A stretch of DNA of 64,000 bases from Chlorella sorokiniana (Eukaryota; Chlorophyta; Trebouxiophyceae; Chlorellales; Chlorellaceae). Shown here in pieces: positions 5,279 through 47,700 of this stretch; position 1 is the stretch's first letter, and each line of letters starts with the position of its first letter. Below the pieces are notes generated by a model. The model saw only the letters and a list, made by a program, of their open reading frames with translations, was not told the origin of the DNA and did no database searches. The stretch lies in assembly GCA_025917655.1 (NCBI GenBank), contig CP084609.1:1426001-1490000 (forward strand), in the 5' to 3' direction. A program made the translations under genes and the position numbers.

Positions 5279-7482
5279 TCACAACTGCCTTCTGCTTTGC
5301 CCAAGAATACCGCTAGAACCGACATCCTGCACGTATTTTCCAGGTCTGTACCACTCCTGTAGGTATGACTGGAATTTCCCATCTGCATCGACAATCTGTG
5401 CTAGAAGCACCTCCAATGCTGCCCATGGCAGCCGCGCAGAGCGATCACGAGGCCACCACTTCTTGCTCCCAATTTTTTGCTGCTCTTCGGGGCCCGGGGA
5501 CGACAGGGAAGGGTCGCAAATATTCAGCACCCACCACAACAGCTGTGAGGTGGGGTCCTGCACGCACAGCCAACATCGATGTTGGATACCACTCACAAAG
5601 AAAACAAGACAAGTGCATTTGATATTTTGTGCCTCACAGCACGTGGCCAGCCACAGGCGCAGCATGCAAGCTGCCCCGAGATGCCGACAACGCAAACAAC
5701 AGCCCAGCATGCTCACCCCTGCATTGAAGCCGCTCAGCGACATGGCTCCCGGCTGGCTGGCCACCCATCCAAAGGGCATGATCTCCACGGTGCTGCTGCC
5801 TGGTCTCATGAACCAGCTGTTTGCCATGTTGGCGCCGTGCATGCCAACGAGGATGGACGCCTCTTGCGCTGCCGCCACGCCTTCTGTTAAGTTGGGAGTT
5901 GTGACCTGGCGGAAGGGAAGAAGCAGTTGGCCGCGCAGTGCAACTGGCATGCAATGGAAAGCGGCGGCCCACAACACATCTACATAGAACGCAAACACAC
6001 CTGTCGGCAATCTGCAGTGAAAGTTTTCGGCCCTCGGCGCAGGCGCCAGCTCCGACATCGCTCTATGAGCTCAGCCGCATTCAGCAGCTGCCGCCCCTCT
6101 GAATCACGTTTCACAAACAAGACTGTCAGCCTCCGTCCGCCGTCACTCGCGCCATTCAGCTGCTGCCAGGGCTGAGCTCGCTGCGCGGGCTCGTCTTCAC
6201 TTTTCCGCTGCTGCTGACGCACCACCTCCTGGCCCCACGCAAAGAGCTCCCGAGGGACACCTGCCTCCAAGGATGTGTCAGTGAGCGGCGCGGCTCGGCC
6301 ACTGGCTATCTTGGTGCCGCAGAAGAACATGTTCTGGAAGCAGCGCTGCTCGCCTCCTTCGAAGCTGTGCGGCCTGGGCGCCTGCAGACGAAGCACCCTG
6401 AGTGAGCAGGTGTGTCGCCAGCACTGCATGCGTACAGGCCCCGGTTAGCATTGCAAACCCACCCGCGGTTGGTCACGGGTCGGGTGGTTGCCGGCGACGC
6501 AGCCCGTTGGCAGCCGGGCACTGAAGTCAGCAAGGCTCTGCAGGGCCAGCGGGCCCAAAGCAGGTAGCAGCTGGGCCTCCACAGGTGTCAGTCCCAAGCC
6601 GTCAGGTGTGAGCACGACAGGCTTGATATGTGCATGCCAGCGAGTGCGCCGGGCCATGGCGAACCAAATCGCTGCATTGTCTGCAGGCGCAACAGGTTGC
6701 ACCGTGCATGGAAACAAAGATGGCACGCTGTCAGCCCAGCGCATGTCAGAAGGTAAAAACAACCTCCTGCAGCAGATCCGCTTACCAAAGACGTGCCACA
6801 AGTTGTTGCGCCACGTTGCGGCCAGCACAATTGGCACGGTGCAGGTGGAAAAAGTTGGTGCTGCAGGTAAGGGGCAGGCTCTTGTGCCGTGGCCGGGCGC
6901 AGCCGGGGTGCCTCCAGGTGGCGGTGATAATCGATCTGCACTTGATAGGCCTGCCGCCGACCCCGTCCGCCTGCTGCGGCGCCATTCGAAGATGCATTGC
7001 TGCCTGACGCTGTCGCTGTCTGCCCAAGCCACGGCCACGAGAATACTTTATTTGGTGACATTTGCAAGCTGGGCAGCGCCCCTGCGACGCCGCCATCCGA
7101 CTGTTGGAAGGCTTTGTCCCACAGGATGATGGTGGATTGGTCCAGGCAAACGCTCTGCGGCAGCCAGCTAGGAGCAACTTCCTCACGCAAGCCCTCAAGA
7201 CAAGCGGCAGCTCAAAGTGCTGCTGGTCAAGCAGCAGGTATGCGTCCTGGCCATGGAAGCCAAAAAACACAGCAGCCTGCATGCAAGGTTCAAGCCCACC
7301 TCCAACCGCTGGCAGTGCTGAGCCCAGGGCGAGGTCTCCACATCCAGGTCACAGCTGGCCAGCGGTGGCTGAGCGTTGCCACGCACCCTAAGCTGACGAC
7401 TGCCGATGCCAACAAGCTGAGAACCCAAGACCAGCACCAAGGCTGTGATGCCAGCACATGTAAGCAAAAAACTCCGACTCAT
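5279..7482 (-). CDS. GT61-family glycosyltransferase (EOGT/XYLT-like)
   Basis: Likely a Golgi or ER type II membrane glycosyltransferase. It starts at 7482 with MSRSFLLTCAGITALVLVLG, a signal anchor. An internal exon has NLWHVFG at a GTAAG donor. A long exon (about 6400-6000) includes RRLTVLFVKRDSEGRQLLNA. The C-terminal exon (about 5990-5730) carries the GT61 hallmark ASILVGMHGANMANSWFMRP followed by GSSTVEIMPFGW. The last exon includes KKWWPRDRSARLPWAALEVL and ends at 5279. Family members add xylose, GlcNAc or arabinose to glycans or glycoproteins; the substrate cannot be read here. Its neighbours, a proline-rich protein and an extensin-type arabinosyltransferase, fit a wall-glycoprotein role. 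Some N-terminal splice sites are uncertain. Confidence 0.75.
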
Positions 7483-25617: not shown

Positions 25618-27320
25618 CCCGCTGGCTGCTCCTCCAGCGCGTCAACCTAATGCCAGGGCCCGGAAAAGCGCGGAAGGCAGGGGGAGCGCTGCCTCCCCAC
25701 ACTGCCCGGGTACCAATATGATGATGTTGTTGTCAATGGCGGTTGGCTGAAAGGAATTGCGCAGCGGGCGAGGAACATACTGATGAGCGTCCTTGCTCCA
25801 GGGTCTGCCTACCCTGCTAACCAGGTAGCTGCCTGGGCTTACGCAAACTCAACTACAGTTGTGCTTCCTAGAAGCGTAATTAGATGCTCGTAGTGCTTTG
25901 ACAAATTCCCAAGTGTCAGAACCGCCGCCTGGCAGCCCCACACGTGCCTCAGGTGGTCAGCCCTGTTTCAAGCACGCTCGGCATTCCAGCAGCGTGGGGG
26001 CACGTTAGATGCATTTCAGCAGTAATCTGCAAAGAAATTAGCACGAGGCGGGCTTGCGCGGGGGTGCCGCCGCTCGTCCGCTGGTTGGAGCGGCCGCCCC
26101 CGGTGGCCAGTGGCCCTACAGTGTCCAGTTGTGGCTCCATGACGGCACGATTAGTTGGGAAGGGACGTGCTGCAAGCGGACAGGGAGAGCATGCCGGCAC
26201 AATGATAGGCAAGAGGCCCACTGGTGATGCCCAGCAGAATGTACTGCAGCAATCGAGCAGCCAGCAGCGGTGCAAGCAGCACATGTGGCAGCAGGGCAGC
26301 ATGCACTTGCTGAACCCATAAGTTGCACGTGCCTCCTCTCCTCGCAGTTCAAAGCATGCTCTGCAACGCCAGGCTCGCGCGAGCAGGTCCCCGCAGCATA
26401 CCGCAGGCTGAGCCTGCACCGCATGCGCGCAGGGCCAGCGCAGCAAGCTCTCAGCCGGGGAATATGCGGGCCAGTTTGATTTTCTGGCCATAAGCCAGGC
26501 AGAACCGTAAGAGATCAAGGGTACCATGCCAGTGCACGTAGATTGCGAGCAGCCTTGGTCCACCGGGCAGGGAATCTCACGTTATGTGGCCATAGAAAAG
26601 ATTCCCACAGCGCCCTGCAGCATCAAAGAATTCAGTTTGGATGGTAAGCTTACGGGCCTCTGGTGCCGTCGCCTTCGCGCCAGGCAACAATCGCGCATCG
26701 CCAACTTGAATTTCAGAACGATACCAATGCGGCCAACGCTGCTGCAACAACGTGCAGCATAGGCATACTGCGCAGCGCCAGGCATGCCGGTCAACCATGC
26801 TTTGCTGTTGCAAGATGAGCATGTGCAGCAGGGGACAGGTGTCCGCTTGCCTGATGAGCAGTGACGGGCACCGGTGCCAGCGGGGGCGGATGGGGATCCT
26901 CTGGCTGTAGCCTACGTCGCCCGCACACTTAAGCGGGGCTTGTAACAAGCAGCGGCAGGTTGTGTTGTCGTGTACTGGGTGCAAAGTTCCAGCGCTGAGG
27001 CAGGGGCATGGTAGAAGACGCCTGTCAACCGTAAGAGTGCCATCTGCAGAATCAGTCAGCAGAAAATGCCATCCAAATCGATATGTCGTGAACTGGGCCA
27101 CACAGCAGCCTCCAGCTGTGCCATGCAGCACTTTGGGAAGCTCTAAACTCACGGAGGCATGCAAAAGTAGCCTCACGTTCCCCGCGTATCACCAGATGAT
27201 GAGCCAAAGTGCTTGCCTGTGGCCGAGCCTCGGCTCGCAGCGGTCAACAGCCTTGGGGCGGAAGCTCCCTCAACTGCACAGCGCACATCCGTCGGCATCG
27301 CTGTTTGCAAGCCACACAGA

Positions 27321-27490
27321 GGAAGGGGCTTGTGCATACACAAATGCGATAGAAGGTGGCAGAGGCTACCCCTCCTTGGATGGCGTAGGGACATGCTGCG
27401 GCCCTGCAGAGCACCTTGGATAGCGTGCAAGGGAGTTTTCAGCAAGTTGCTAGCTCCAAGGCATATCTTCATGGAAATCTGGGAGCACAA
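27321..27490. repeat. direct repeat, copy 1
   Basis: About 170 bases repeated at 28271-28438 in the same orientation. Shared blocks include CTCCTTGGATGGCGTAGGGA, CGGCCCTGCAGAGCACCTTG and CAGCAAGTTGCTAGCTC followed by GGCATATCTTCATGG. The copies differ at scattered bases and by small indels. Confidence 0.8.
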
Positions 27491-27966
27491 CAAGACAGAG
27501 GTGCTGACTCTGCTACTCAGCTGAAGCATGCTGACAAGGCAGGGATGCTCGTGATAGAGTATTATGCTGAGCCTGCTAAGCATGCATGCATAAGAGAGAG
27601 TGGTTCCCAGCTTGCATCTTATGCCTGCTTAAGTGCAAGAAGGAAGCAGAAATTGAGCAGACCCACCCACCCACCCGTGTCTGCTCACCGAGTCTTGCAG
27701 GCTCTTGGGCCTCCAACTACTCCACCACGCACCCTCCAGCCCGGCCAAGCCTACAGCAATGAACGGGGGAGGAAGAGAGAGCAGGCAGCCTCAACAACAG
27801 CCATTTGAAGTGGATGGAGGTGCCTGGAATAGCCAGCCAACTCCCCAACCATTCATTAGTGCATAACAGAAACAGCATGAGAAGTCTGAGTAACAAGAAG
27901 AAGGAGCTTCAAAGAAAGAGACTGTCTTTGGCAGATAGCTGCTGCTGACCCTGCCACGCAGGCTCA

Positions 27967-28012
27967 CACGTCAGCCCGCTCTATCAACTGAGTCTCCTAT
28001 AGGAGCATCACC
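27967..28012 (-). other. tRNA-like A-box fragment
   Basis: On the reverse strand ACTCAGTTGATAGAGCG resembles the D-arm (A box) of a tRNA and GGGCT...AGCCT could form the anticodon stem, but the loop is eight bases and no B box or acceptor stem follows. Most likely a tRNA-derived remnant, not a working tRNA. Confidence 0.25.
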
Positions 28013-28270
28013 GTAATGCAGAAATGGAAGTTGTACCAATACTTCCAAAACCTCCAATGAATCCACCTAGTCTTGCTGGCTGGGGCGTCCATTGCCAACT
28101 ACATATCCTGCAGTCTTGCGAAAACTGCTAGACATGAAAGACAGGCCCACCTTGTCGCTGCATCAGCATGGCGCAACACGCCGTCTCCGAGGCGGTGCTC
28201 CTGCTGCGTTTACTTTACATTAAAGAAACGGGCACACAAAAATCTTACAAAGGGTGAAGAACTGTAAGCA

Positions 28271-28438
28271 GGAAGAAGCTTGTGCTACACGAACGTGCCA
28301 GAAGGTGGCAAAGGCTATTCCCTCCTTGGATGGCGTAGGGACATGTTGCGGCCCTGCAGAGCACCTTGGACACCGTAAATAAGAGCTTTCAGCAAGTTGC
28401 TAGCTCAAAGGCATATCTTCATGGCAATTTAGGAGCAC
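28271..28438. repeat. direct repeat, copy 2
   Basis: Partner of the repeat at 27321-27490, about 780 bases downstream of its end. The right edges part after the GGAGCAC block. Confidence 0.8.
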
Positions 28439-28764
28439 TGAAAGCAACTGTGTGCACTGCGCAACATGGCGCAGCCTTTTCCGGGCTGTGCTACTGCTGC
28501 ACCAGGACACTCTAGATTTGATCAAAGGATCAATGCACACACTTAGAAACGTCTAAAGTCTCGGAAAGAATTCTTTGTCATGCCATGCCTGATGCAATGA
28601 CGCTAGCACTACATCAAACGGTTGGAAAGTACCAAGTGCATAGCGCGCTCACGGGCGCAGGCACAGGAGGGGCAAAATGCGGCAGCGGAGAGAAGGCACA
28701 CTTGGCAAAACCAGAGCGCTGACAATCTAGCATCGGTACCGGTAGCAAAGCACACAGCAATCCG

Positions 28765-28834
28765 GTGTGGGTGGGTGGGTGGGTGGTGTGTGTGTGCGCG
28801 CGGGGGGGGGGGGGGGGGGGGCGCGCGCGCGCGC
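28765..28834. repeat. low-complexity tract (GGGT)n, G20, (GC)n
   Basis: GGGT repeats and a GT run are followed by 20 consecutive G (28802-28821) and a GC alternation. Such a tract is hard to sequence, so its true length may differ. It could form G-quadruplex or Z-DNA. Confidence 0.9.
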
Positions 28835-28915
28835 TGTGGGGCAGGCCGGCGCCATTGAATACACTACAGGCTCTCCACAAGAAGATAGCTCATGTTGCAC
28901 ATAAGAATATGGGTG

Positions 28916-31900
28916 TCAAGATGTGTGCGTATCTTGCATGTAAGCCCACACCACAACACAAACACACAGGAATAAAAACCCCGATAAAATAAACATTGGG
29001 ATCCAGATTTCCCACCAAACTTCCTTCGCGATGTGCTTCTGCATGCGTTGCGCCCAGGAATCCTTGGGATTCATACCAGATTCTCCAGACGTGTTGGAGG
29101 TTGTTTGCGCAGCAGGCACAAGAGGTTTGCCAGTGAGCTTTTGATAGCGGAATGCATGATACCGCCGTTCTGTCTCGGCTTTTAGGATGGGTGTCGCAGA
29201 GGACAACAGGCGGCGGAGCGCTTGCAAATCTGAAATGACAGATAGGGGCGGGAAGCTGCAACAGGTGTCAAAACACAACGAGCCATGCAGGTAACCCTTA
29301 CTATTACGCATGTGTGAATCTTGCCTGCTTGTGCGCTTTTCGATTCATTGCCAATGATCACTGCAAGCGGCAGCTCCACAGAAAGACCTGCTGCCTGGCC
29401 CACCTCTGCACACGACACATCCCAACACTGTTGTAAGATCATGGTGCTAGATTGAGTCATTGCAGCGCATGCGCACCTTTCAGCAAGCTCAAATGCGCAT
29501 TCGAGTATGGATTGCGATAAAAAGCAGGCCCGCTGCCAAGCTCGGTCCTCACAGCTTCCATCTGGGCTTTCAACTGAGATGAAGGGCATTGATCTGCCAC
29601 GCTTATGACTGCACATTGGGCAAAGCGACATGGATGCAGATGTTCAGCTGAATGCGTGCATCCTGGCCTGCACCCATGATAAAATCAGCACCTGGAATAA
29701 CAGGCAGCCTCCATGCGAGCTGAAGCACTGCTTCTGTGTAATCATGAAATACCCTGCACAAGTGTCGCATTGAAGCATCACGCACTGGCGCTCACATACC
29801 TTACAGCAGCACACGGAAAGCGTTGCAAGTCCGTAGAGGCACCCCTCACCCGCTTGGCGGCAAGACAACGATGCACGCGTTGAGCCGAGTGTCGCGCAAA
29901 GCATGGGAGGGCAGCATTCTGTGCATACCTTCACACAAGGTTTATGAAATCATGAGGTTGAATGAGACAATTCAATTCAGTGTTGCAGCAAGGAAATGCA
30001 AGCCTCACTTGAATCCTCTTTGTAGTAAGCTTCAAATCCGCCAGTGACAACGTTAGCAATGTCCTGCACTGCATCGCCTCGCAGCCCGCCCCAAATCTCG
30101 GTGACTTCGTAAAGAAGCTTTGATTGACACGTGTTTGCAGGCCTGCACAGCTCAAAAGGGTTTAGGGTCCATGCATGCAATGCAAACAGCTAGCCAACAA
30201 CAAATCATATTAGCTGCCAGTCAGGCGTGGCCTGAGCAATGACTCGCAAGATCTGCCCCTGGCATGCATACCTGCACGCCACAGCCCTGTAGGTCATGGC
30301 TTGCACAAAGCGCTCTGGTCTGCTTGTCGCAATGTACTTAAAGTCCTCATCCTCAATGAGCTCTAGTGGCGACAGCAGGGAGCGAATGAACGACGACTTG
30401 CCCTCGCCAACGTCCCCAACCTGCAGATGAAGATGAGCGAGTCCTCGTAAGCCCTATAAAACTGTCGCCCAACTGCAGCCCACAATGTGAGAGTCGCTCA
30501 AGCTGCAGGTCTCACCACCAACAGGTTGATGCGCTGGGTATGTGGTTGCACCAAGGGAGGCCGCAGATCAGCACCACCAGCCACTTTACGCATAATCTCT
30601 GCAAGGCAAATGCGCAGTATTGAGATCATGCGCACACAACAACAACGACAACGAAGCAGTTTGTAGGCCCACACTTGCCTGCCTTTTCTGTTTGGGCGTG
30701 CTGATCTGCTGGGGTAACACAGGGGCTCATGGGCTCAAGCTTGCACGCGGCTGTAGGTGCATTTGAGACCGACAGCGCAAAACTCCCGGTGTGTGCTGGA
30801 CAAATGACTGGATCTGGCCCGACTCCTCGGGTTGCAGGCGGTGATTTTCCAGCCATGCGCGCTTGGCGGTACACAGCATACTGCGAATTGCTATGGGATC
30901 GTAGGACATGGTGTGATGACGCCAGCAGCTTACGCAACGCCAATACATCTGCGGTTTGCAAGCATAGATGATGCTTTCATGGGGGTTCCAAGCAAGTTAG
31001 CATAAGAACCGTTGCTGCAGAACAGTGGTTTGGTTGCAATTCAATTGCGCATTCCTCTCCAAAGCACTTTGCCTCCAAGTGCAAGATCACCTGTGTTTGG
31101 CCCAACAAGCACCTCGCTGGTGCCCCAGGCGCAGATTCGCTGTGGCCAAAAGCTGCAAGCAGATGTGGAGACAGTTGAATTCTGCCTCTTGACAAGCCCA
31201 GACTGTGCAGTTTTTCAGCGGAGGGAACCTCACCTTCCGGTCGTTGTTGAAGCATAAGAGCTGGCAGTTGTGGCAACAGGCAGACGATCAGCTTCCAATC
31301 CTGCAAAGCTGTTTCAAGGGCGTTGTCAGTGCACAGTATCAAAGCACACCCTGCACCAGGCTGCGAGAACTGGCCTTCCAAGTCTTGACTGAGCTTGGAG
31401 GGCCAGGTGCAAGCTCTTGCCTACCTCTCAGTAGCCCAGTGAACATGGTGGCGTTTGGCAAGCAGTACATGTCCGGGCCAACAAGTCCTAGTTGCTTCCG
31501 TACTGAAGCGCGATGCTTCTCCAACTCCGAAACGGTGTACAAGTCAGATTTGCTCACAACTGGAAAGGCAGCAAGCAGTCCGATTTGCCCACATGCATGC
31601 TCTCCAATCCACAGCAAAGGCTGCCGAAGATAAGCAGTTCGTCTCACCTGGAATGACGGGCAACCACCTTGCCAGGGAGCTCACAGCTCCCACCAGCTCG
31701 TCGCTGAGCCTTTGGGGCCAGGCATGGGTACTGCAAGCGGCACGAAGGAAGGGGCCCGGTTGGGGCAGCAGGCGGGCAGCTCGATCCGTTGGCTCGAGCG
31801 CAGCACTCGTGCTTCTTCCATTCCCAGCGGGAAGGCCTACCTTGTGTTAGGCAGCAGTAGGAGGCACGCGTGCGGGAGGTCCCGGCACAGCTCGCGAAGG

Positions 31901-32912
31901 GGCTGGCTGCGCTCGGGCCCTGCACCAAGTAAGCCAGGTTTAATCCGGCAAGCCAACGATGCAGCCGCATCCAACACGCCGTGTGCCCGATAGACACCTC
32001 TGGTGGCATACAGGCCCTGAGAGGCCCACTCTACTTACACCGGTCATAAAAGAAATGCTTGCTATGGCAGCTCTCGAGGAAGCCAAGAATGCCACGCATC
32101 ACGCCCTTGCCCAGGCCGCCCCTCACTTCGATGAAAGTGTAGTCAAGGGCACCCCCGCCCTCCTCAGCCGGCCTGCACAGGGGACGCAATGCAGCAGTCA
32201 AGGCGCCTTCAGCTGGCAGCCCACCAGGGAATTTTGCTGAGAAGCCAGTGGCCTTAAACCGCCACAACTGCCTGAAGATCCTTGTGTTGGGGCCAAGGCA
32301 CGTTTCCATGCCTGCACAGCAGCCCACCTGGCAGCACGGGCAGAATACTCCCTTATGTCCAGGCTTGAGAAGCCAAGCAAGCCGGTCGTCGGCATGCGCA
32401 TTTCATAGGCGGCGATGCTCAGCGGCTCCAACAGGGTGCGGATCAGGGAGGACTTGCCGGAGCTGACATCGCCCACCTGCAACAGTGAAAGGAAATGACA
32501 GGGATGGGGAGAAGGGTGACGTGCATGCATGCTTAAAGCTAATCGTGTTGCAAGTCAATTCCAGCAAGGCAAGGCAAGGCACACGCCAACGCACCACAAG
32601 CACGTTGAGGCGCGAAACCTTCTGAGGCAACGGTATGGGAGCCAAGTCGGCACCTGACCACAACTCTGCACGCAAGTGCAGCAAAAGTAGCAAAGTCATG
32701 GATAGTCACCTTGCACCAGCGGCCAAGCGGGAACTCTTGATAAGCGCATGGAGCTCTGTGGTTTCTGGCCAAGGCGAGGCCAGCAGTGTATGGTTTTAAA
32801 GCAAGCACTTCAGCTGCTGTTCCGCACCCTCTGCCTCTTGCACTTCTTCCACGTTTTCGTCCTCCTCAATTTCTTCCTCCTCTTTGGCTGGACAGGCCTC
32901 ACACTCTTCCAT
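28916..32912 (-). CDS. tail-anchored tandem IFI44-like P-loop GTPase
   Basis: About 19 exons. Acidic start (32912, MEECEACPAKEEEEIEEDEN), then two homologous P-loop modules. Module 1: SRLNVLV joined to VGDVSSGKSSLIRTLLEPLS (exon 32476-32328), DYTFIEVRGGLGKGVMRGIL (32172-32039), LARWLPVIP (31730-31648), VVSKSDLYTVSELEKHRASV (31559-31425; SKSD as G4). Module 2: QRINLLV to VGDVGEGKSSFIRSLLSPLE (30420-30272), EVTEIWGGLRGDAVQDIANV (30142-30009), LAWRLPVIP (29753-29692), VISVADQCPSSQLKAQMEAV (29608-29477). Each ends with a helical unit: DVLALRKLLASSHHVLRSHS and DLQALRRLLSSATPILKAET. The C-terminus has one membrane helix, WIPMFILSGFLFLCVCVVVW, with a ten-residue tail. The order GKSS - '..GGL..' - VIPxxS.sD follows vertebrate IFI44. 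A GC-AG intron (30678-30599) links the modules in frame. One module-1 joint (31300-30948) is not phase-clean. Confidence 0.7.
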
Positions 32913-33603
32913 GCCGAGGCTGCCGGCTGGGTTGTTGGAGGGATTGCCAGCAGATGCCTGAAGGGGAGCCCCGCTGTTGCCTACCGCTGGAGGCGCTGCA
33001 ACGGCGTCACCACCTGCGGGCGGTTGACAGGGCGCAAAACGCACGTTCAGGCGCGAAACTCACGTTGCAACCACTGGCGAGGCAGCAGCAGGGTATCAGG
33101 CCTGGCTGGGCACCATTTGGGGCACTCAGGACCAGGTAGGTTTGTCGCTTGCGACAGGTGCGTGTGGGCAGTAGTTCCAACTATCCTGCTCACTGTTGTT
33201 GCAACTGATGAGATCCCACTCATTCGAGTCCATGGCGTATCCTGCAGCTCTTGCAAAGCGCTGTCACAAGCGGCAGAGGGGCTGGCAGACGTGGGAGGGG
33301 TGCCCTGCTGACGAATACAGGCAAGCGTGAGGGATGCTGGAGATACGAGGCCGTGCAAACGCGGTTTCACCGTCAGCATAACTGCACAACACCCTCGGTG
33401 TACTGCCAGACGCTTGGATGCTTTAGTTTTTTGCAGTGTACGCGTGCTGGACGAGGAAGACTGTTGCAGCATTGCTGCCAGACCCAATACGTGAATGCAC
33501 GCAGGGCGCTTGTGCCAACCAGTCGAAACCAAGGGCAATTGCAATGAGCTCATGCAGCGTGCATTGCACCTCATAATCTCAACCATTAACAAGCAGAGGT
33601 ACC
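32913..33603. promoter_or_regulatory. spacer between divergent GTPase and USP genes
   Basis: About 690 bases. The open frame upstream of the GTPase ATG (to 33044) could extend its N-terminus if an upstream start is used. A reverse ORF (33047-33592) has no recognisable domain. Promoters of both genes should be here. Confidence 0.35.
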
Positions 33604-34743
33604 ATGCAGGAGGAAGCCCAGCGCCATCAAGTTCCCTTGAAGCCTGGTGGGTGCTTTGTCAACACGCGTGCATCTTTACATTTCCACAAGCACCGTGCCA
33701 CGCTCTCGGCTGCAGGCTGCCCAAGCGACAAAACAAGTCCAGCCGTGGCGCATGCACCTGTGCAGCTGCCGCGCGCGCCACATTTTTGTTGCTGTGGACC
33801 ACGACGGGTGCGCTCCCGGCAGGTGCACTACTGCGCCAAGGTGAGCCAGTTTGGGGCATGCTGCTAAGTCTACAAGTGAGGGTTGCCCCTGCACCTGAAG
33901 TTGCTACAGTAGCATTAGCTGATTCCAGCAGCTGCTATGGCCTCCCTGCAGCTGCTGGTCAAGGGGGCTGGCGATCAGGTGACGCTGCTGCATGTGCAAC
34001 AAAAGGGGCACCCAGGCGGCAGCACCCGCGGCAGCAGCGCGCTTGGCCCTGAGACAGCTTGCTCAAACAGCCAGACGCAGCTGCTGCGCATGTCGGCTCC
34101 TGCTGCCCATGCCCTGCTCGGCGGGCAAGCCGGCGGGGGCAGCCAGCACGCCGTGCGGGGCTGACCAGGTTCAGTGCGCTCGGCTGGCTTGGTGGCCCCA
34201 ACAGCAGCAGCCCAAGTGAGAAGAGCGGCGGGAGGTCCACTGCACCTGAGGGAACCGCGCAGGACGGCTGCACTGAGCTATTGGAAAGCTGCCGGCAGCA
34301 GCTGCTAGCAGAGTGCAAGAGGTGAGCTAGGTGCTTGTGGTGGCGGGCTGTGCACCTTCGCCATACTTCGCCGGAGTAAGGACAAGCGCCCATGTCTGCT
34401 TCCAGGCTGACCCCGAACGCCTCCACAGCCAGCTGCTAGCCCACACAAGGAGCCCTGAGAAGGCGATTGTCGAGGCGGTTGCACAGGCGCGCTGCCGCAC
34501 CGGACCTGTCCCTGGCCGAGGCTTCAATGCTGACAGGGTGCCTCTCCGTCTCCCCAGACCATCCACCCCTGCTGCCGCACTCACGCCCTCTCCCCACTGC
34601 AGCCAGGCGGACACATACTCGTGCTGGGCACCCACCGCCATAGCAGGCTGTTGGGCATGATGCACGGCAGCAGTGACATGAGCCGCTACTGCTGCGAGCA
34701 CCTGCCCAGCACACGCGTGGTGGTGCTGAGGCCCGAGGACTGA
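33604..34743 (+). CDS. universal stress protein (USP) family
   Basis: Small nucleotide-binding fold found in bacteria, plants and algae, often stress-induced. Exon 1 (33604-33650) MQEEAQRHQVPLKPGG; exon 2 (about 33766-33807) has the first strand RHIFVAVDHD; exon 3 (from about 33928) LQLLVKGAGDQVTLLHVQQK, the typical 'd.v.llHV'; then CTELLESCRQQLLAECKR to a GTGAGC donor at 34321; RSPEKAIVEAVAQ; and the last exon GGHILVLGTHRHSRLLGMMH plus GSSDMSRYCCEHLPSTRVVV, ending LRPED. The last block is the USP ATP-loop region 'dllVlGtrg.s.l.g...GS.s.y....'; the second glycine of G-x2-G is histidine here, so ATP binding is not assured. The joint between exons 2 and 3 is approximate. Confidence 0.75.
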
Positions 34744-36825: not shown

Positions 36826-39800
36826 TCATCCTGCCATTGATGCCTGTCTGTCTACTGCGTGTAACAGATACAGTTCAATGTATAAATAAACTAACATAAT
36901 GAGTGACTGGCACACTATAGCACATGCGCGCCTTTCAAATCCAGCTGCTGGGTAGCTCTCACGCTGCTCGCAAGAGAGCGACATCCTCCCCGCGTCATCG
37001 CTTTCATCTGCCTCTGAAAAGCGCGCAAGCCCAGCCTGGAACTGCTGCCCCTGGTCTCTGGTTGGTGCGGCGGGTGGGCCAACAGCATGCAGGAGAGCCA
37101 GCGCCGCCAGCCACCCGACCGCCAGGGCCAGCGCCGCAGTTCGAAAGAGAGCTGCAGCGCCGTGGGTTCCATACAGCAGCCCGCCTGCAAGGCCGCCCAG
37201 GCCAGCCCCTGAAAGCGGGAGGGACATGCCATTGGACACATATTGGTCCAGGCGTTCAGCCGCCATCCCGCTCCTGCCCTGCCGCAGCCCCGCCCGCCCC
37301 ACTCCCCTCACCGATGCCGGTGTAGAGCCCCTGGAACAGGCTCTGCACCGTGCTGCGCAGGTGCGGCGGCGAGATGCGCTTCACATGCACTGTGCCTGCG
37401 CTCCAGGCCAGCGCAAAGGTGGCCCCCTGCAGCAGCTCCACGGGCAGCAGCAGCCAGGGGGTGGGCAGCAGCGGCAGCGCGAGGTAGGCCAGCAGGCGCG
37501 CCACGTAGGCGCCCATGGCCACGTGCAGCGCACGGGACGCGCCCAGCGTGCGCAGCAGCGAGCCGCTCCAGTAGAACACTGGCACCTCAGCCGCGCAGTT
37601 CACCTGTGTGTGTGTGTGTGTGTGTGGTGTGGTGTGGGGGGCGGGCGGGGCGGGGCGCAGGCGAGGTTAGCGGGGGAGTGCACCGGGCGTGACCGCACCA
37701 GGCTAGCAGCGCGACAGCTTTGCAGCGCAGCACGAGAGCGGGCAGGGCAGGGGCGCGGGTGAGCACTGCAACAGCGCACGGAGAGGCAGAGGCCCATGAG
37801 GGTGGCGGGGGCCTCCAGCTCGTCCAGGTAGAGGAAGAGGTAGCCGATGGCGCCGTTGCCGACGCCCATGAGGAGGGCCTGGGGGTGTAGGGTGGGGGGG
37901 TGGGGGGGGCGATGAGACAATGCATGGCTGGGGGTTGTATGCTTTGTTGTTGGGGGCGGGAGTTTGGTGTTTGGGTGGGTGGGTGTGGCGCGAGAGGAGG
38001 GACCTGGCACAGAGGTTTGCCGAGCGGTCGCTGGGCAAGGGAAGGGGCACGCAGTGGGGGGAGCTGAGGGGCACTCCCCCCAGCGGCGGCGGCCAGCTCA
38101 GGGCCTGGCCCCCGGGGCCACCAACCCACCAGGAAGAAGAAGACCAGGACGTGCACATCGCGCAGCAGGCCCAGCAGGCCCTCCCACACGCCGCCGGCTT
38201 GCGGTGGGCTGACGCCAGCAGTGGGAAGGGCAAGCTTCTGCTTCAGGCTGTCGCTGTCGAGCACAACCTCAAGGGGGCGTGCGCTGCTGCTGCTGTGCCA
38301 GCCGCCCAGCGGCGCGACAGGCGCGTTGGAGGCAGGAAGCAGGGGTCGGTGGGCGGGACTGAGCAGGGGGCCCGGGGCTGGGGCTGGGGCTGGGGCTGCC
38401 CAGCAAGGGGTGTGCACGGCAGGTGGGGGAGGGCGGCCGGCGCGGCAGTCGGCCACAAGGTGGAACACGGGGGGCTGGCAGGAGATGCAGGGATTGCGCG
38501 GCTTGCTTCCGGCTGGCTGATTGGGCTGCGGTCGGCGGCGGGGGCCAGCCCCGCCCGATGCTCCAGGATGCGTTGGGGGCTACCAGCGGCGCCGCCTTCC
38601 CCGCCTCTGCCAGGCCGTCGCCGCCAATCCTCACCTCCAGCACGCCGCCGCTGCTGCCCTCCCCCTGCACTGCCAGCTTGTCTGAGGGCCTGCCGCTGGG
38701 CGCGCTGAGGCCGCCGCTGTCAGGGCTGCCCTGGACCCCCGCAGAACCCTGGGCCGCTGCTGCGCCGCCCTGCGGGCCGGGGCTGGCGGCCAGCACCTCC
38801 ATGGGCAGCAGGCAGGCGGGCAGGAGGCAGAGGCCCACGAGGAGGGCGAAGCAGAGGAAGGCGGCCTGCAGCCCGTACGCAGCCACCACCCAGCCGGCCA
38901 GCGGGGCGGTGAGGCCCCAGCCCACCGACGCAAACATGCGGATCCGGCCATAACCGCCATCCTGTGGGAGAGTGAGGCCAAAGGTGGTGTGCATCGGTGG
39001 ATGGATGTGGAGTGGTGGGGTTCAGGTGGGGGGGGATGCTGCGGACCATGCCAAAGCTGAGTGCAGGTGTCATAAACATTGAGATGAACATGGGCTTGGA
39101 GGGAGCCAGCGGGCACGCATGCTCCCCCTCGGCATGCACCCGAGTGGACCACGCCTCGATCTCGGCCCCCACCCACATCTGTGGCGGAGGCCATCACGGC
39201 GGCATCGACGAGAGCGCCCAGCGGGCTGGCCGCCGCCTCGGTGAGCAGCGCCAGCGCCAGCTGGGTGGAGAAGGCCGCAGAGAGGGCCATCGAGGAGCGG
39301 CCCAGGTAGGCCACAAGGTATGCAGCCAGCAGGACGGCCATGTGGCAGCGGGTGGAGTCGGCCAAGGATACGACAGCCGAGCCTGCGCCACGGGGGAGGC
39401 AGGGATTGGGCTTGCAGTGCTTCACTATTTTCGATACATGCTAGACTCTCGTCACTTCCACGAGCTGCCCAGGAGGTGGTGGGCAGAACACAGCAGAGGG
39501 GCGGCAGGCAGGAGACCGGCCTGCAGGCGCTGCCACCCAGGGCTTGAGGGCGCATAGCACGCCGATGAGCTGCTCATCAAAGCAGCAGTGCTGGCGGTAG
39601 AATAGATTGACAAAGGGCAACAGGAAGACAGTGCCGGCACTGAACAGGAAGAAGTAGACTGCAGACAGGGAAGGGCCAGGAAGAGCGGGGGGGCTCAGCG
39701 AGCGGGCGGCATCAGGTGGCAGGTGGAGTGCGGGGAGGAGCCGAGAGTGCCTTGGCAGCACGGGGGCCACGTTCCCCACACGTTTGGGTATCAAATCTGT

Positions 39801-44757: not shown

Positions 44758-47700
44758 CTATGATTGCGGTAGCGGTCCGTGCCGCTCGCGTGGACGCTCG
44801 GCCTGCTCAGCCTGCTGCGAATCGCCTGGCGGCAGCACCGCGCTGCGCAGGAACTGCACCATGTAGGACTCGTAGTCAGGCATCTTCTCATAGCCTGCAG
44901 AGGCCCATGCAGGCGGAGTCGCAGCCGGGAGAAGGAGGCAGGCAGGGCGGCTGGGCAGACGCGAGGGCACAGGCAACAGGGGCAGTCAAACAGCGGCGGG
45001 GAGCATGGCTTGGCCCGTGTGGGGGCCTCGGAGGGCAGCCAGTTGCAGCCGCACGAGCGGTCGGGGCCTGCGGCCGCAGTTGTCGGCATCTGAGGGGCCC
45101 ACCTGGGAAGTAGTTTATGTCGATCAAATGGTACAGCAGCTCCCCCTGGCCCCCTCCTCCTGCGCCGCTGGCCCCTGCTGCCTCTGCTGCTGCCGCTCGT
45201 CCAGCCCACCCCAGCCAGCTGCCTGTGCGCTGGCGGCTGCTCCGCCGCCCCTCTGCTCCTGCTGCCGCCGCTCGTCAGCGGCAGCGGCCGCCTGCGCCTT
45301 GACCACCGTGAGGTCAAGCACAGCGGGCTCCTCTGACGCAGCGCCCTCAGCGCAGCAGCCGCCACTGTGCTGCGGCATCGCTCGCTGCTGGGCCTGACAC
45401 GGCTCACCCTGCTGCTGCTGCTGCTGCTGCTGGCGCTGCTGCTGCGGCTCGTCGGCCTCCTTGCCTGCGCTCGCGCCGCGGCTGGGCGCCAGCTCGGCTG
45501 CGCTGGAGGCGTGGCGCGGGCGGTGGTGGTGCAGGTGCATCGGCACGATGACGTCAAAGTTGAACAGGCTGAGGCCGGTCTCCGCACGCAGGCGCCGCGC
45601 CAGCGCCTGCAGAAGCCAAGGCGGAGGGCTCGGCACGCCATGGCCCTGCGGCGGCAGTGGGGGGTGGGGGTTGGGGGGTGGGGGGGGCACGCGGGGCTAG
45701 GAACACAAGTCAATGAAAAGCAGGCTTATCGCTCGCACTGTCCACACAGAGGCTTGTGGACAAAGCTCAGGCTGTGGCTCGGCCCGTCCTGCACCTCTGC
45801 ACATCTTGCTGCACTGCCACCCCTGCCCTCCCTGCCGCCCTGCCTTCCCTGCCGCCCCACCTTGGGCGCGGTGTCGGCCTTGCCCCACGACTTGCTGGCT
45901 GGGTAGGCGGACACGCGATTAAGCAGCTCCAGATCGGGCGTGGAGGGTGAAGCAGCAGCGGCGGCGCCGCTGCCCCCGCCCCTCGCGTCGCTGCCTGCGC
46001 CTCCGGCGGGCCGCCGCCGCCGCTCGCCTCCTGCGGTTGCCCCTCGCGCTGCGGCTGAGGCTGGCAAGGAGCCGGGGCACACGCCCACTGGGGGAGATGC
46101 AGCGAGTTGCGCTTGACGCGCACTGCAGGGGGAATGGAGTCCGGGACCAGTCGGTGGCGGTCGTGGTTGCCTGTGTGGCCTTCACATATGTGCAGCCACC
46201 ACCACTCTAACACACGGGCAGCCACTGGGGCTGGCAACCTCCTCTTGGCATTCCCCTCGCTTCTACCTCAGTTACCCGCCCCACGCATCTTTGCGCCGCC
46301 AAATCTTGCTTCCCCTCCCCTCGCTTTCCTGTCAGTGCACCATTACGCACAGCCCCCTTCCACCCGGCATCAGCAGCCCCACGCCCCACCCACCCCACCC
46401 ACGCGGCCACCCACCATACGTGTCCCCCAGCACATACACCTTGAACAGGCAGCCGCCGTGGTCGACGTACTGCTGCAGCAGCACCGGCAGCGCCAGGTGG
46501 GCGGCCTCCCCAGCAACCAGGCGCTCCAGCCCGCCCGGCGTGTGCACCACTGAGCATGGGAGCGGCGGAGTGCGTGAAAAGCTGCATTAATCACGCCCGC
46601 CAGCACAGCGTCTGCTGCCAGCCGGGAGCACCGCAGAGCCACTGTGGGCGCCGCCCTGTGCTACCCATGCGTCCCCTCCTCCCCCTTCCCCCTCCAGACC
46701 CCCCCGCCCCACCTGCCAGCGCGTGGGATCCCTCCCGCCCGTCTGCCCACAGCGGCTTGGCCAGCAGCGGGAAGCGCAGCCCCGCGGCCTCCAGCTGGCG
46801 CTGCGCCTGCTGCACCGACGTGCCCTCCGCCAGCACCGTGTGGGTGGGCACGTCGCAGCGGCAGCGCAGCGGCGGCCGCCCGCGCTCCGCCAGCGCTGCG
46901 GGCTCCTGCGGGGGCGGTGTGGAAGCGGGGGCCATCAACCAACCAGGGCTGCACACGTTAAAACACACGTGCGTGGCTGCGCGTCGCCCGGCTGCCACGC
47001 CTGGCCTGCGCTGCCGCTACCAGGCAAGCGGTGATTTAAAAGCAGCAGTGTCCGTGTGTGCAGCCAGCAGCCTCGCTGGGCCTGCCCCCTTGCTCTCAGC
47101 GCCGCTGCAGCTGCGAGGAGCCGCTGCGCACCTCAAACAGCCAGCCGCCGCCGTCCAGGAAGGACACCATGGTGCCGCGGTTGCGCAGCGGGTAGGTGGC
47201 TGCAGGTGGGTCAAACACGCGTACCTCGGGGTGGGCGGCGGCGTACCGCTCCAGGGCCGCCTCCCAGTCTGTAACGCGCAGGAGAGGCAAAGAAAGGGCT
47301 ATCCGAAGGCCAGGGCACCATCAGCGATCCGCAGCGCGGCTGAAACCGAGATGGGCAGCCTGCTTCTGCCGCCGACGCGGGCGGCCACCACCTGCCACTG
47401 CACAGGCCTCGGATGCAGCGATGAGGCAGCGGGGCGGCGGCGCACCTGGCTTGCGCACTTTCTGCAGGATGGCCGCAAACGGCCCCTGCTCCTCCAGCGG
47501 CTGCTCCTTGTCGATGAATCGCAGCGTGATGCCCTCCTCCGCCGCCATGCGCACCAGCTTGTCGCTGATGTGCTTCTTGCGCTTGTCCTTCTTCAGGGCC
47601 AGCCCCACTACGCAGGGCTGGGCGCCCGCCGTGGCCGCACAGGGCGGTTGCGCGGAGGCGCCGAGGCCGCCAGGGAAAGTCCCGGGCGGTGGAGCGGGCA

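Follow-up and report, generated by a model that had tools for sequence, protein, structure and literature searches.

A probable tandem septin gene with a predicted C-terminal membrane anchor in Chlorella sorokiniana

In a stretch of 64,000 nucleotides from the green alga Chlorella sorokiniana (contig CP084609.1, positions 1,426,001 to 1,490,000; hereafter the window, whose own numbering is used throughout), a locus on the minus strand encodes two successive P-loop modules and ends in a hydrophobic segment. A preliminary description of this DNA, made from its letters and open reading frames, had assigned both modules to IFI44-like GTPases. In this paper we examine the exon structure, family membership and motif content of the locus and argue that it is, with good probability, a single gene whose product is a C-terminally anchored tandem septin. 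Septins are cytoskeletal proteins with a part in cell division. The architecture, the asymmetry between the modules and the hydrophobic tail can be read directly in the sequence. Two papers on septins, PMC11238149 and PMC8640212, are cited from parts of their text, and statements that rest on them apply to those parts.

Gene model and the duplicated module

The gene model comprises 19 exons between positions 33233 and 28916 (Table 1); the frame is open throughout and the spliced product has 769 residues. Exon limits were placed by eye, with the correspondence between the modules partly used as a guide. The introns are of the GT-AG type in 16 of 18 cases and of the GC-AG type in two (30678-30599 and 29324-29230). 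The gene had earlier been given the span 28916 to 32912; the lower end stands, but the start probably lies upstream, at 33233, with an in-frame ATG near 32911, within exon 2, as the alternative. Exon 7 has an alternative acceptor that would start it at 31709, give it 62 bases as in exon 16, and raise the match to the PDB sequence 5irr from 38.9 to 47.1 bits; judged by eye, the acceptor at 31730 looks the stronger splice site. The database title of 5irr is Septin-like protein, and we take it to be the septin of Chlamydomonas reinhardtii.

Table 1. Exons of the proposed tandem septin gene model and the intron joining its modules (positions in the window)
Feature	Position	Strand	Content
Exon 1	33194..33233	-	N-terminal leader (MDSNEWDLISCNN); provisional, with open frame and GTGAGC donor; no homology support, least certain exon
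Exon 2	32828..33013	-	Acidic N-terminal extension
Exon 3	32595..32665	-	Start of septin module 1, to first strand (RLNVLV); homologous to exon 12
Exon 4	32328..32476	-	Module 1 P-loop GDVSSGKSS, switch I region; matches exon 13 in length (149) and phase
Exon 5	32039..32172	-	Module 1 switch II region (EVRGG; DTPG in 5irr) and next helix; matches exon 14 in length (134) and phase
Exon 6	31841..31919	-	Module 1 strand equivalent to Sep2 motif (ACLLLLPNT); matches exon 15 in length (79) and phase
Exon 7	31648..31730	-	Module 1 arginine-finger position and LPVIP strand
Exon 8	31425..31559	-	Module 1 G4 motif SKSD; phase as exon 17
Exon 9	31234..31300	-	Module 1, lead-in to septin unique element
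Exon 10	31091..31152	-	Module 1 septin unique element core (FWPQRICAWGTSEVLVGPNT), aligned to FWPERRYPWGTAEAFNKEHS of 5irr; no counterpart in module 2
Exon 11	30679..30948	-	Module 1 last helix (alpha6) and linker
Intron 11	30599..30678	-	80 bases, GC-AG; in-frame join of modules
Exon 12	30516..30598	-	Start of septin module 2
Exon 13	30272..30420	-	Module 2 P-loop GDVGEGKSS
Exon 14	30009..30142	-	Module 2 switch II region (EIWGG) and next helix (FEAYYKEDSS)
Exon 15	29850..29928	-	Module 2 Sep2 motif (DTRLNAC)
Exon 16	29692..29753	-	Module 2 LPVIP strand; glycine at arginine-finger position, codon split with exon 15
Exon 17	29477..29608	-	Module 2 degenerate G4 (SVAD)
Exon 18	29325..29405	-	Module 2 (LPLAVIIGN); followed by second GC-AG intron, 29324-29230
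Exon 19	28916..29229	-	Last helix of module 2, linker, predicted C-terminal transmembrane helix (IWIPMFILSGFLFLCVCVVVWAY), stop

The motifs named in the preliminary description were all found again on the minus strand, in pairs: the P-loops GDVSSGKSS and GDVGEGKSS, the GGL exons (EVRGGLGK and EIWGGLRG), two copies of LPVIP, SKSD and SVAD, and DVLALRKLL and DLQALRRLL. One module is present twice, in exons 3-11 and again in exons 12-19, and the copies align over 297 columns with 29% identity (E 2e-28). Their Smith-Waterman score is 254, a value reached by none of 1000 shuffles (mean 34.7, maximum 58). Three exon pairs in succession agree in length (149/149, 134/134 and 79/79) and in phase (0, 2 and 1). 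In position and phase, five of the seven introns of module 2 coincide with those of module 1, or six of seven with the alternative exon 7 acceptor, in which case the remaining intron is offset by six columns with an alignment gap between. Seven introns placed at random gave at most three coincidences in 200,000 trials, which used the alternative exon 7 and scored the site that crosses the gap as a match. The earlier proposal that an intron-containing module was duplicated inside the gene is supported.

Near the C-terminus of the protein a hydrophobic window reaches a peak Kyte-Doolittle mean of 2.58, whereas no window that begins ahead of residue 720 exceeds 1.53. A single-sequence AlphaFold2 model of exon 19, translated in frame, contains helices at its residues 2-32 and 55-102 with an unstructured linker between them, and over residues 71-100 the block means of the predicted local distance difference test are 86, 96 and 94. 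Because the predicted template modelling score is 0.33, the helices alone were used from this model. These values support the C-terminal transmembrane tail anchor that had been predicted. At the other end, residues 1-75 include 19 acidic residues (D/E) and a single basic one (K/R), and the linker between the septin modules is approximately 55-77 residues long. A polybasic stretch precedes the GTPase domain in every septin group except Group 8 (PMC11238149), and polybasic stretches are present in the C. reinhardtii septin (PMC11238149); here, in contrast, the N-terminal extension is acidic.

Septin matches and the asymmetry of the modules

Both modules pass the Pfam Septin cut-off of 26.2 bits, module 1 with its leader at 48.7 bits and module 2 at 41.4 bits; trimming module 1 and using the alternative exon 7 gives 51.8 bits. 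The Pfam scan of the two modules gave no other family above its own cut-off, the next being AAA_16 for module 1 (E 0.0023) and GTP_EFTU for module 2 (E 0.036), and the five NCBIfam matches at E up to 1 each lie far under their cut-offs. A profile built from both modules matched 57 PDB sequences at E up to 1, of which the top 43 are septins (E 5e-17 to 6.2e-6). The other 14 begin at E 0.28 and include one further septin (Shs1) and six rows of interferon-inducible GTPases. The best PDB match of module 1 is 5irr (E 1.5e-11 if exon 7 starts at its alternative acceptor, 4.4e-9 with the main one), while that of module 2 is septin-11 (E 3.5e-8), with 5irr in sixth place (4.7e-6). By these matches both modules are septins.

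The two modules differ in what they have kept. The P-loop, or G1 motif (GxxxxGKS/T), is present in both. The septin G4 motif is (A/G)(K/R)AD; the SKSD of module 1 has the lysine and the aspartate, whereas the SVAD of module 2 has only the aspartate of the two. The septin unique element of module 1, FWPQRICAWGTSEV, aligns with FWPERRYPWGTAEA of 5irr, whereas module 2 is without the first half of this element and has no equivalent of exon 10. An arginine of module 1, present in both variants of exon 7, aligns without gaps with the Sep3 arginine of 5irr (PNTRLSD and PPHRLRP), and at this arginine-finger position module 2 has a glycine (PSGVFHD). The Sep2 strand motif is D-x-R, a pattern also seen in the PDB alignments made here; the DTRLNAC of module 2 follows it and the RDLPHAC of module 1 does not. 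Beyond its Sep2 motif, module 2 retains the P-loop, LPLAVIIGN and the last helix. From its Sep3 place beside a histidine (PMC11238149), we take the aligned 5irr arginine to be the published finger. In algal septins the Sep3-motif arginine acts across the G-interface on the neighbouring subunit (PMC8640212, section 5.2.1). On its motifs, module 2 is likely a pseudo-GTPase.

Several other accounts of the locus have to be weighed against a septin tandem encoded by one gene. The IFI44 assignment finds agreement at the P-loop only, where other interferon-inducible GTPases match: Pfam IIGP aligns to module 2 over a 23-residue P-loop stretch (E 0.072; 12.6 bits, where the cut-off is 24), and the six PDB rows cover 23 profile positions of the P-loop at E 0.93-0.97. 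IFI44 and IFI44L are P-loop GTPases, as are the present modules, but no entry of that name occurs in the Pfam, NCBIfam or PDB match lists, no check having been made that these libraries include one. With Septin above its cut-off twice and septins heading the PDB list, the assignment is rejected on sequence evidence and has next to no chance of being correct; the match to a different P-loop family, which the preliminary description had named as refuting if structural, comes from sequence and not from structure. The acidic leader and the C-terminal anchor also recall the receptors of the plastid outer envelope, which have an acidic N-terminus and a C-terminal anchor, so that a GTPase of the TOC34/TOC159 or AIG1/GIMAP type was considered. 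Against this, the septin unique element of module 1 aligns to 5irr, 43 septin sequences head the PDB ranking, and AIG1 is not among the Pfam matches listed for either module at E up to 10, filters dropping most of those above 0.1. These families are paraseptins with arginine fingers (PMC11238149); with AIG1 missing from the listed matches this reading was set aside as highly improbable.

Whether the modules belong to one gene or to two adjacent ones turns on intron 11, which the preliminary description had proposed as an 80-base in-frame join and which is present, with GC-AG ends that were not mentioned there. Two transcripts would have module 1 end unspliced near 30627 and module 2 begin at an ATG near 30593; the unspliced frame of module 1 does stop after a short hydrophobic run (NCFVVVVVVCA), and exon 12 has an in-frame ATG five bases in. 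The gap of approximately 30 bases, however, leaves no room for a terminator and a promoter. The donor CAG/GCAAGT agrees with seven of seven scored consensus positions in the required phase and is the best among the GT and GC sites in 30900-30626, whereas the sole GT site in the needed phase among the 14 best listed, at 30672, agrees with three of seven and by eye would give a TAG at the junction. Exon 12 and exon 3 open alike with a split GAG codon. TGTAA, the green-algal poly(A) signal, does not occur on the minus strand near the module junction: it stands at 32039, in an intron donor, and at 29805, inside intron 15, with none between, and the first two past the stop codon are at 28249 and 28219. 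Given the donor score and the TGTAA positions, separate genes were judged quite unlikely, and one gene with one polypeptide, as originally proposed, is supported. A decaying pseudogene of a fused septin might account for the motifs and the exon equivalent missing from module 2, but the 19 exons form one continuous open frame, every intron is GT-AG (16) or GC-AG (2) and the anchor is intact, so that decay is very unlikely. As a separate observation, retention of intron 11 (30678-30626) would give module 1 a short hydrophobic tail (CGPTNCFVVVVVVCA), which is possibly due to chance or possibly a single-module isoform.

Possible assembly and relation to known septins

From the features described above we infer membrane insertion, fold, pairing and function. 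The tail would lie in the membrane with both modules in the cytosol. The module 1 copies of two molecules would pair in trans across the G-interface and swap arginine fingers, while no productive G-interface is expected of module 2 because its finger, its G4 lysine and the first half of its septin unique element are lost. The last septin helix sits at the NC-interface (PMC8640212); having kept this helix, module 2 could stack onto module 1 close to the membrane, serving there as a cap or spacer. It is the absence of three G-interface or pocket features from module 2, together with its last helix, that favours pairing of module 1 with module 1 and a capping role for module 2. Two molecules joined in this way would form a membrane-bound septin rod of short and limited length, with the order module 2 - module 1 : module 1 - module 2, for which the division site is a plausible place. 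A Nannochloris septin has been reported at the division site (PMC11238149); this likeness suggests such a role and shows nothing for the present gene. The cap mechanism taken alone is tentative, well short of an even chance. It is likewise doubtful, though possible, that the protein is its own hetero-oligomer, a finger-bearing septin, a finger-less pseudo-septin and a transmembrane anchor in one polypeptide, two chains of which would form a complete, capped, membrane-fixed protomer without other subunits.

The main rival to the cap mechanism is a cis dimer of the same protein with another contact, in which modules 1 and 2 of one chain would pair across the G-interface into a heterodimer locked by the covalent link, in place of the algal homodimer. 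Septins with and without the finger co-occur in species with duplicated septins (PMC11238149), a linker of approximately 55-77 residues would permit the contact, and fusion would fix the stoichiometry. Missing from module 2, however, are the G4 lysine and the portion of the septin unique element that builds the G-interface, and the cis dimer is disfavoured because the pocket that receives the finger would be the damaged one; we regard it as rather unlikely.

A number of points weigh against the arrangement with module 1 paired in trans, or against the evidence behind it. Since visual placement of the exons partly followed the correspondence between the modules, their intron agreement is not fully independent; an external check on the spliced product comes from the database matches. 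Module 1 is without the Sep2 arginine. Neither module has the G3 motif DxxG; in the profile alignment both have a glutamate at the switch II aspartate position, at which module 2 is out of register in its single-sequence alignment, and the switch I threonine cannot be placed with confidence. Because such a glutamate is reported in some catalytically inactive septins (PMC8640212), inactivity is possible for module 1 as well, and this weakens the step of catalysis in trans; on the alignments the glutamate marks a divergent septin and does not exclude membership of the family. The crystal of the Chlamydomonas septin is without an NC-interface and its formation of homofilaments is unclear (PMC8640212), and in algal Groups 6B and 7 the NC residues show poor conservation (PMC11238149).

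In C. reinhardtii there is a single Group 6A septin which, as here, has the Sep3 arginine and the septin unique element FWPxR...WGTxE shared by module 1; it differs in having one GTPase domain, a DTPG switch II and a TKAD G4, where the present protein has two modules with E-x-x-G-G. Duplicated septins in Gonium pectorale (one Group 6A and four Group 6B) and in Klebsormidium flaccidum (a pair, one with the finger and one without) have also lost the finger in one or more copies, but they are separate proteins, whereas here both modules are in one polypeptide (PMC11238149). A septin of 4484 residues in Symbiodinium minutum resembles the present one in having its septin domain within a larger fused protein, but that domain is single and accompanied by SMC and HSP70 regions, with no second septin domain mentioned in the cited part of PMC11238149. 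A two-septin polypeptide was not found in the titles and abstract beginnings of open-access literature on algal, membrane and multi-domain septins, and the word "tandem" is not in the main text of PMC11238149, as far as the cited parts go. Searches for relatives gave 105, 15 and 5 pattern stretches in viral contigs and 70 in prokaryote genomes, none of them confirmed by tblastn. Because these were viral and prokaryotic collections and not algal proteomes, the architecture may already sit unremarked in algal sequence databases. Of the tandem, membrane-anchored algal form that the preliminary description set apart, the tandem arrangement is the unusual part, while membrane anchors in algal septins are already known as predictions, transmembrane segments being predicted for 44% of the Group 6A septins (PMC11238149, Table 2).

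Septins are viewed as having evolved from finger-bearing homodimers to hetero-oligomers by way of duplicated genes and the loss of their arginine finger, a loss that follows septin duplication in several lineages (PMC11238149). The same step appears here inside one gene, with one module that has the finger and one that has not, and the gene may show how multi-part septin complexes arise within a single gene. Fusion fixes both stoichiometry and order, so that the hetero-oligomer idea can be tested in a single protein. The idea is linked in this way to septins that span the membrane, about whose role little is known so far.

Surroundings of the gene

A tblastn search of the window with the spliced protein (E up to 0.01) returned this gene only. 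No tRNA was found in the window by ARAGORN (bacterial code), nor any Rfam match at the gathering threshold. Among minus-strand open reading frames, 45127-45696 has an inositol trisphosphate kinase match below threshold (21.6 against 23 bits) and 5282-6070 a Glycosyltransferase 61 match barely over its cut-off (28.2 against 27 bits), while 37259-37666 and 38272-39021 match the transporter family MFS_1_like (E 1.7e-20 and 5e-6). The septin gene lies inside a dip in G+C content, approximately 56% over 26001-34000 against 65% for the whole window. About 80 bases past its stop codon there is a tract of simple sequence (28764-28837) that runs, on the minus strand, from GC through C to CA and CCCA repeats.

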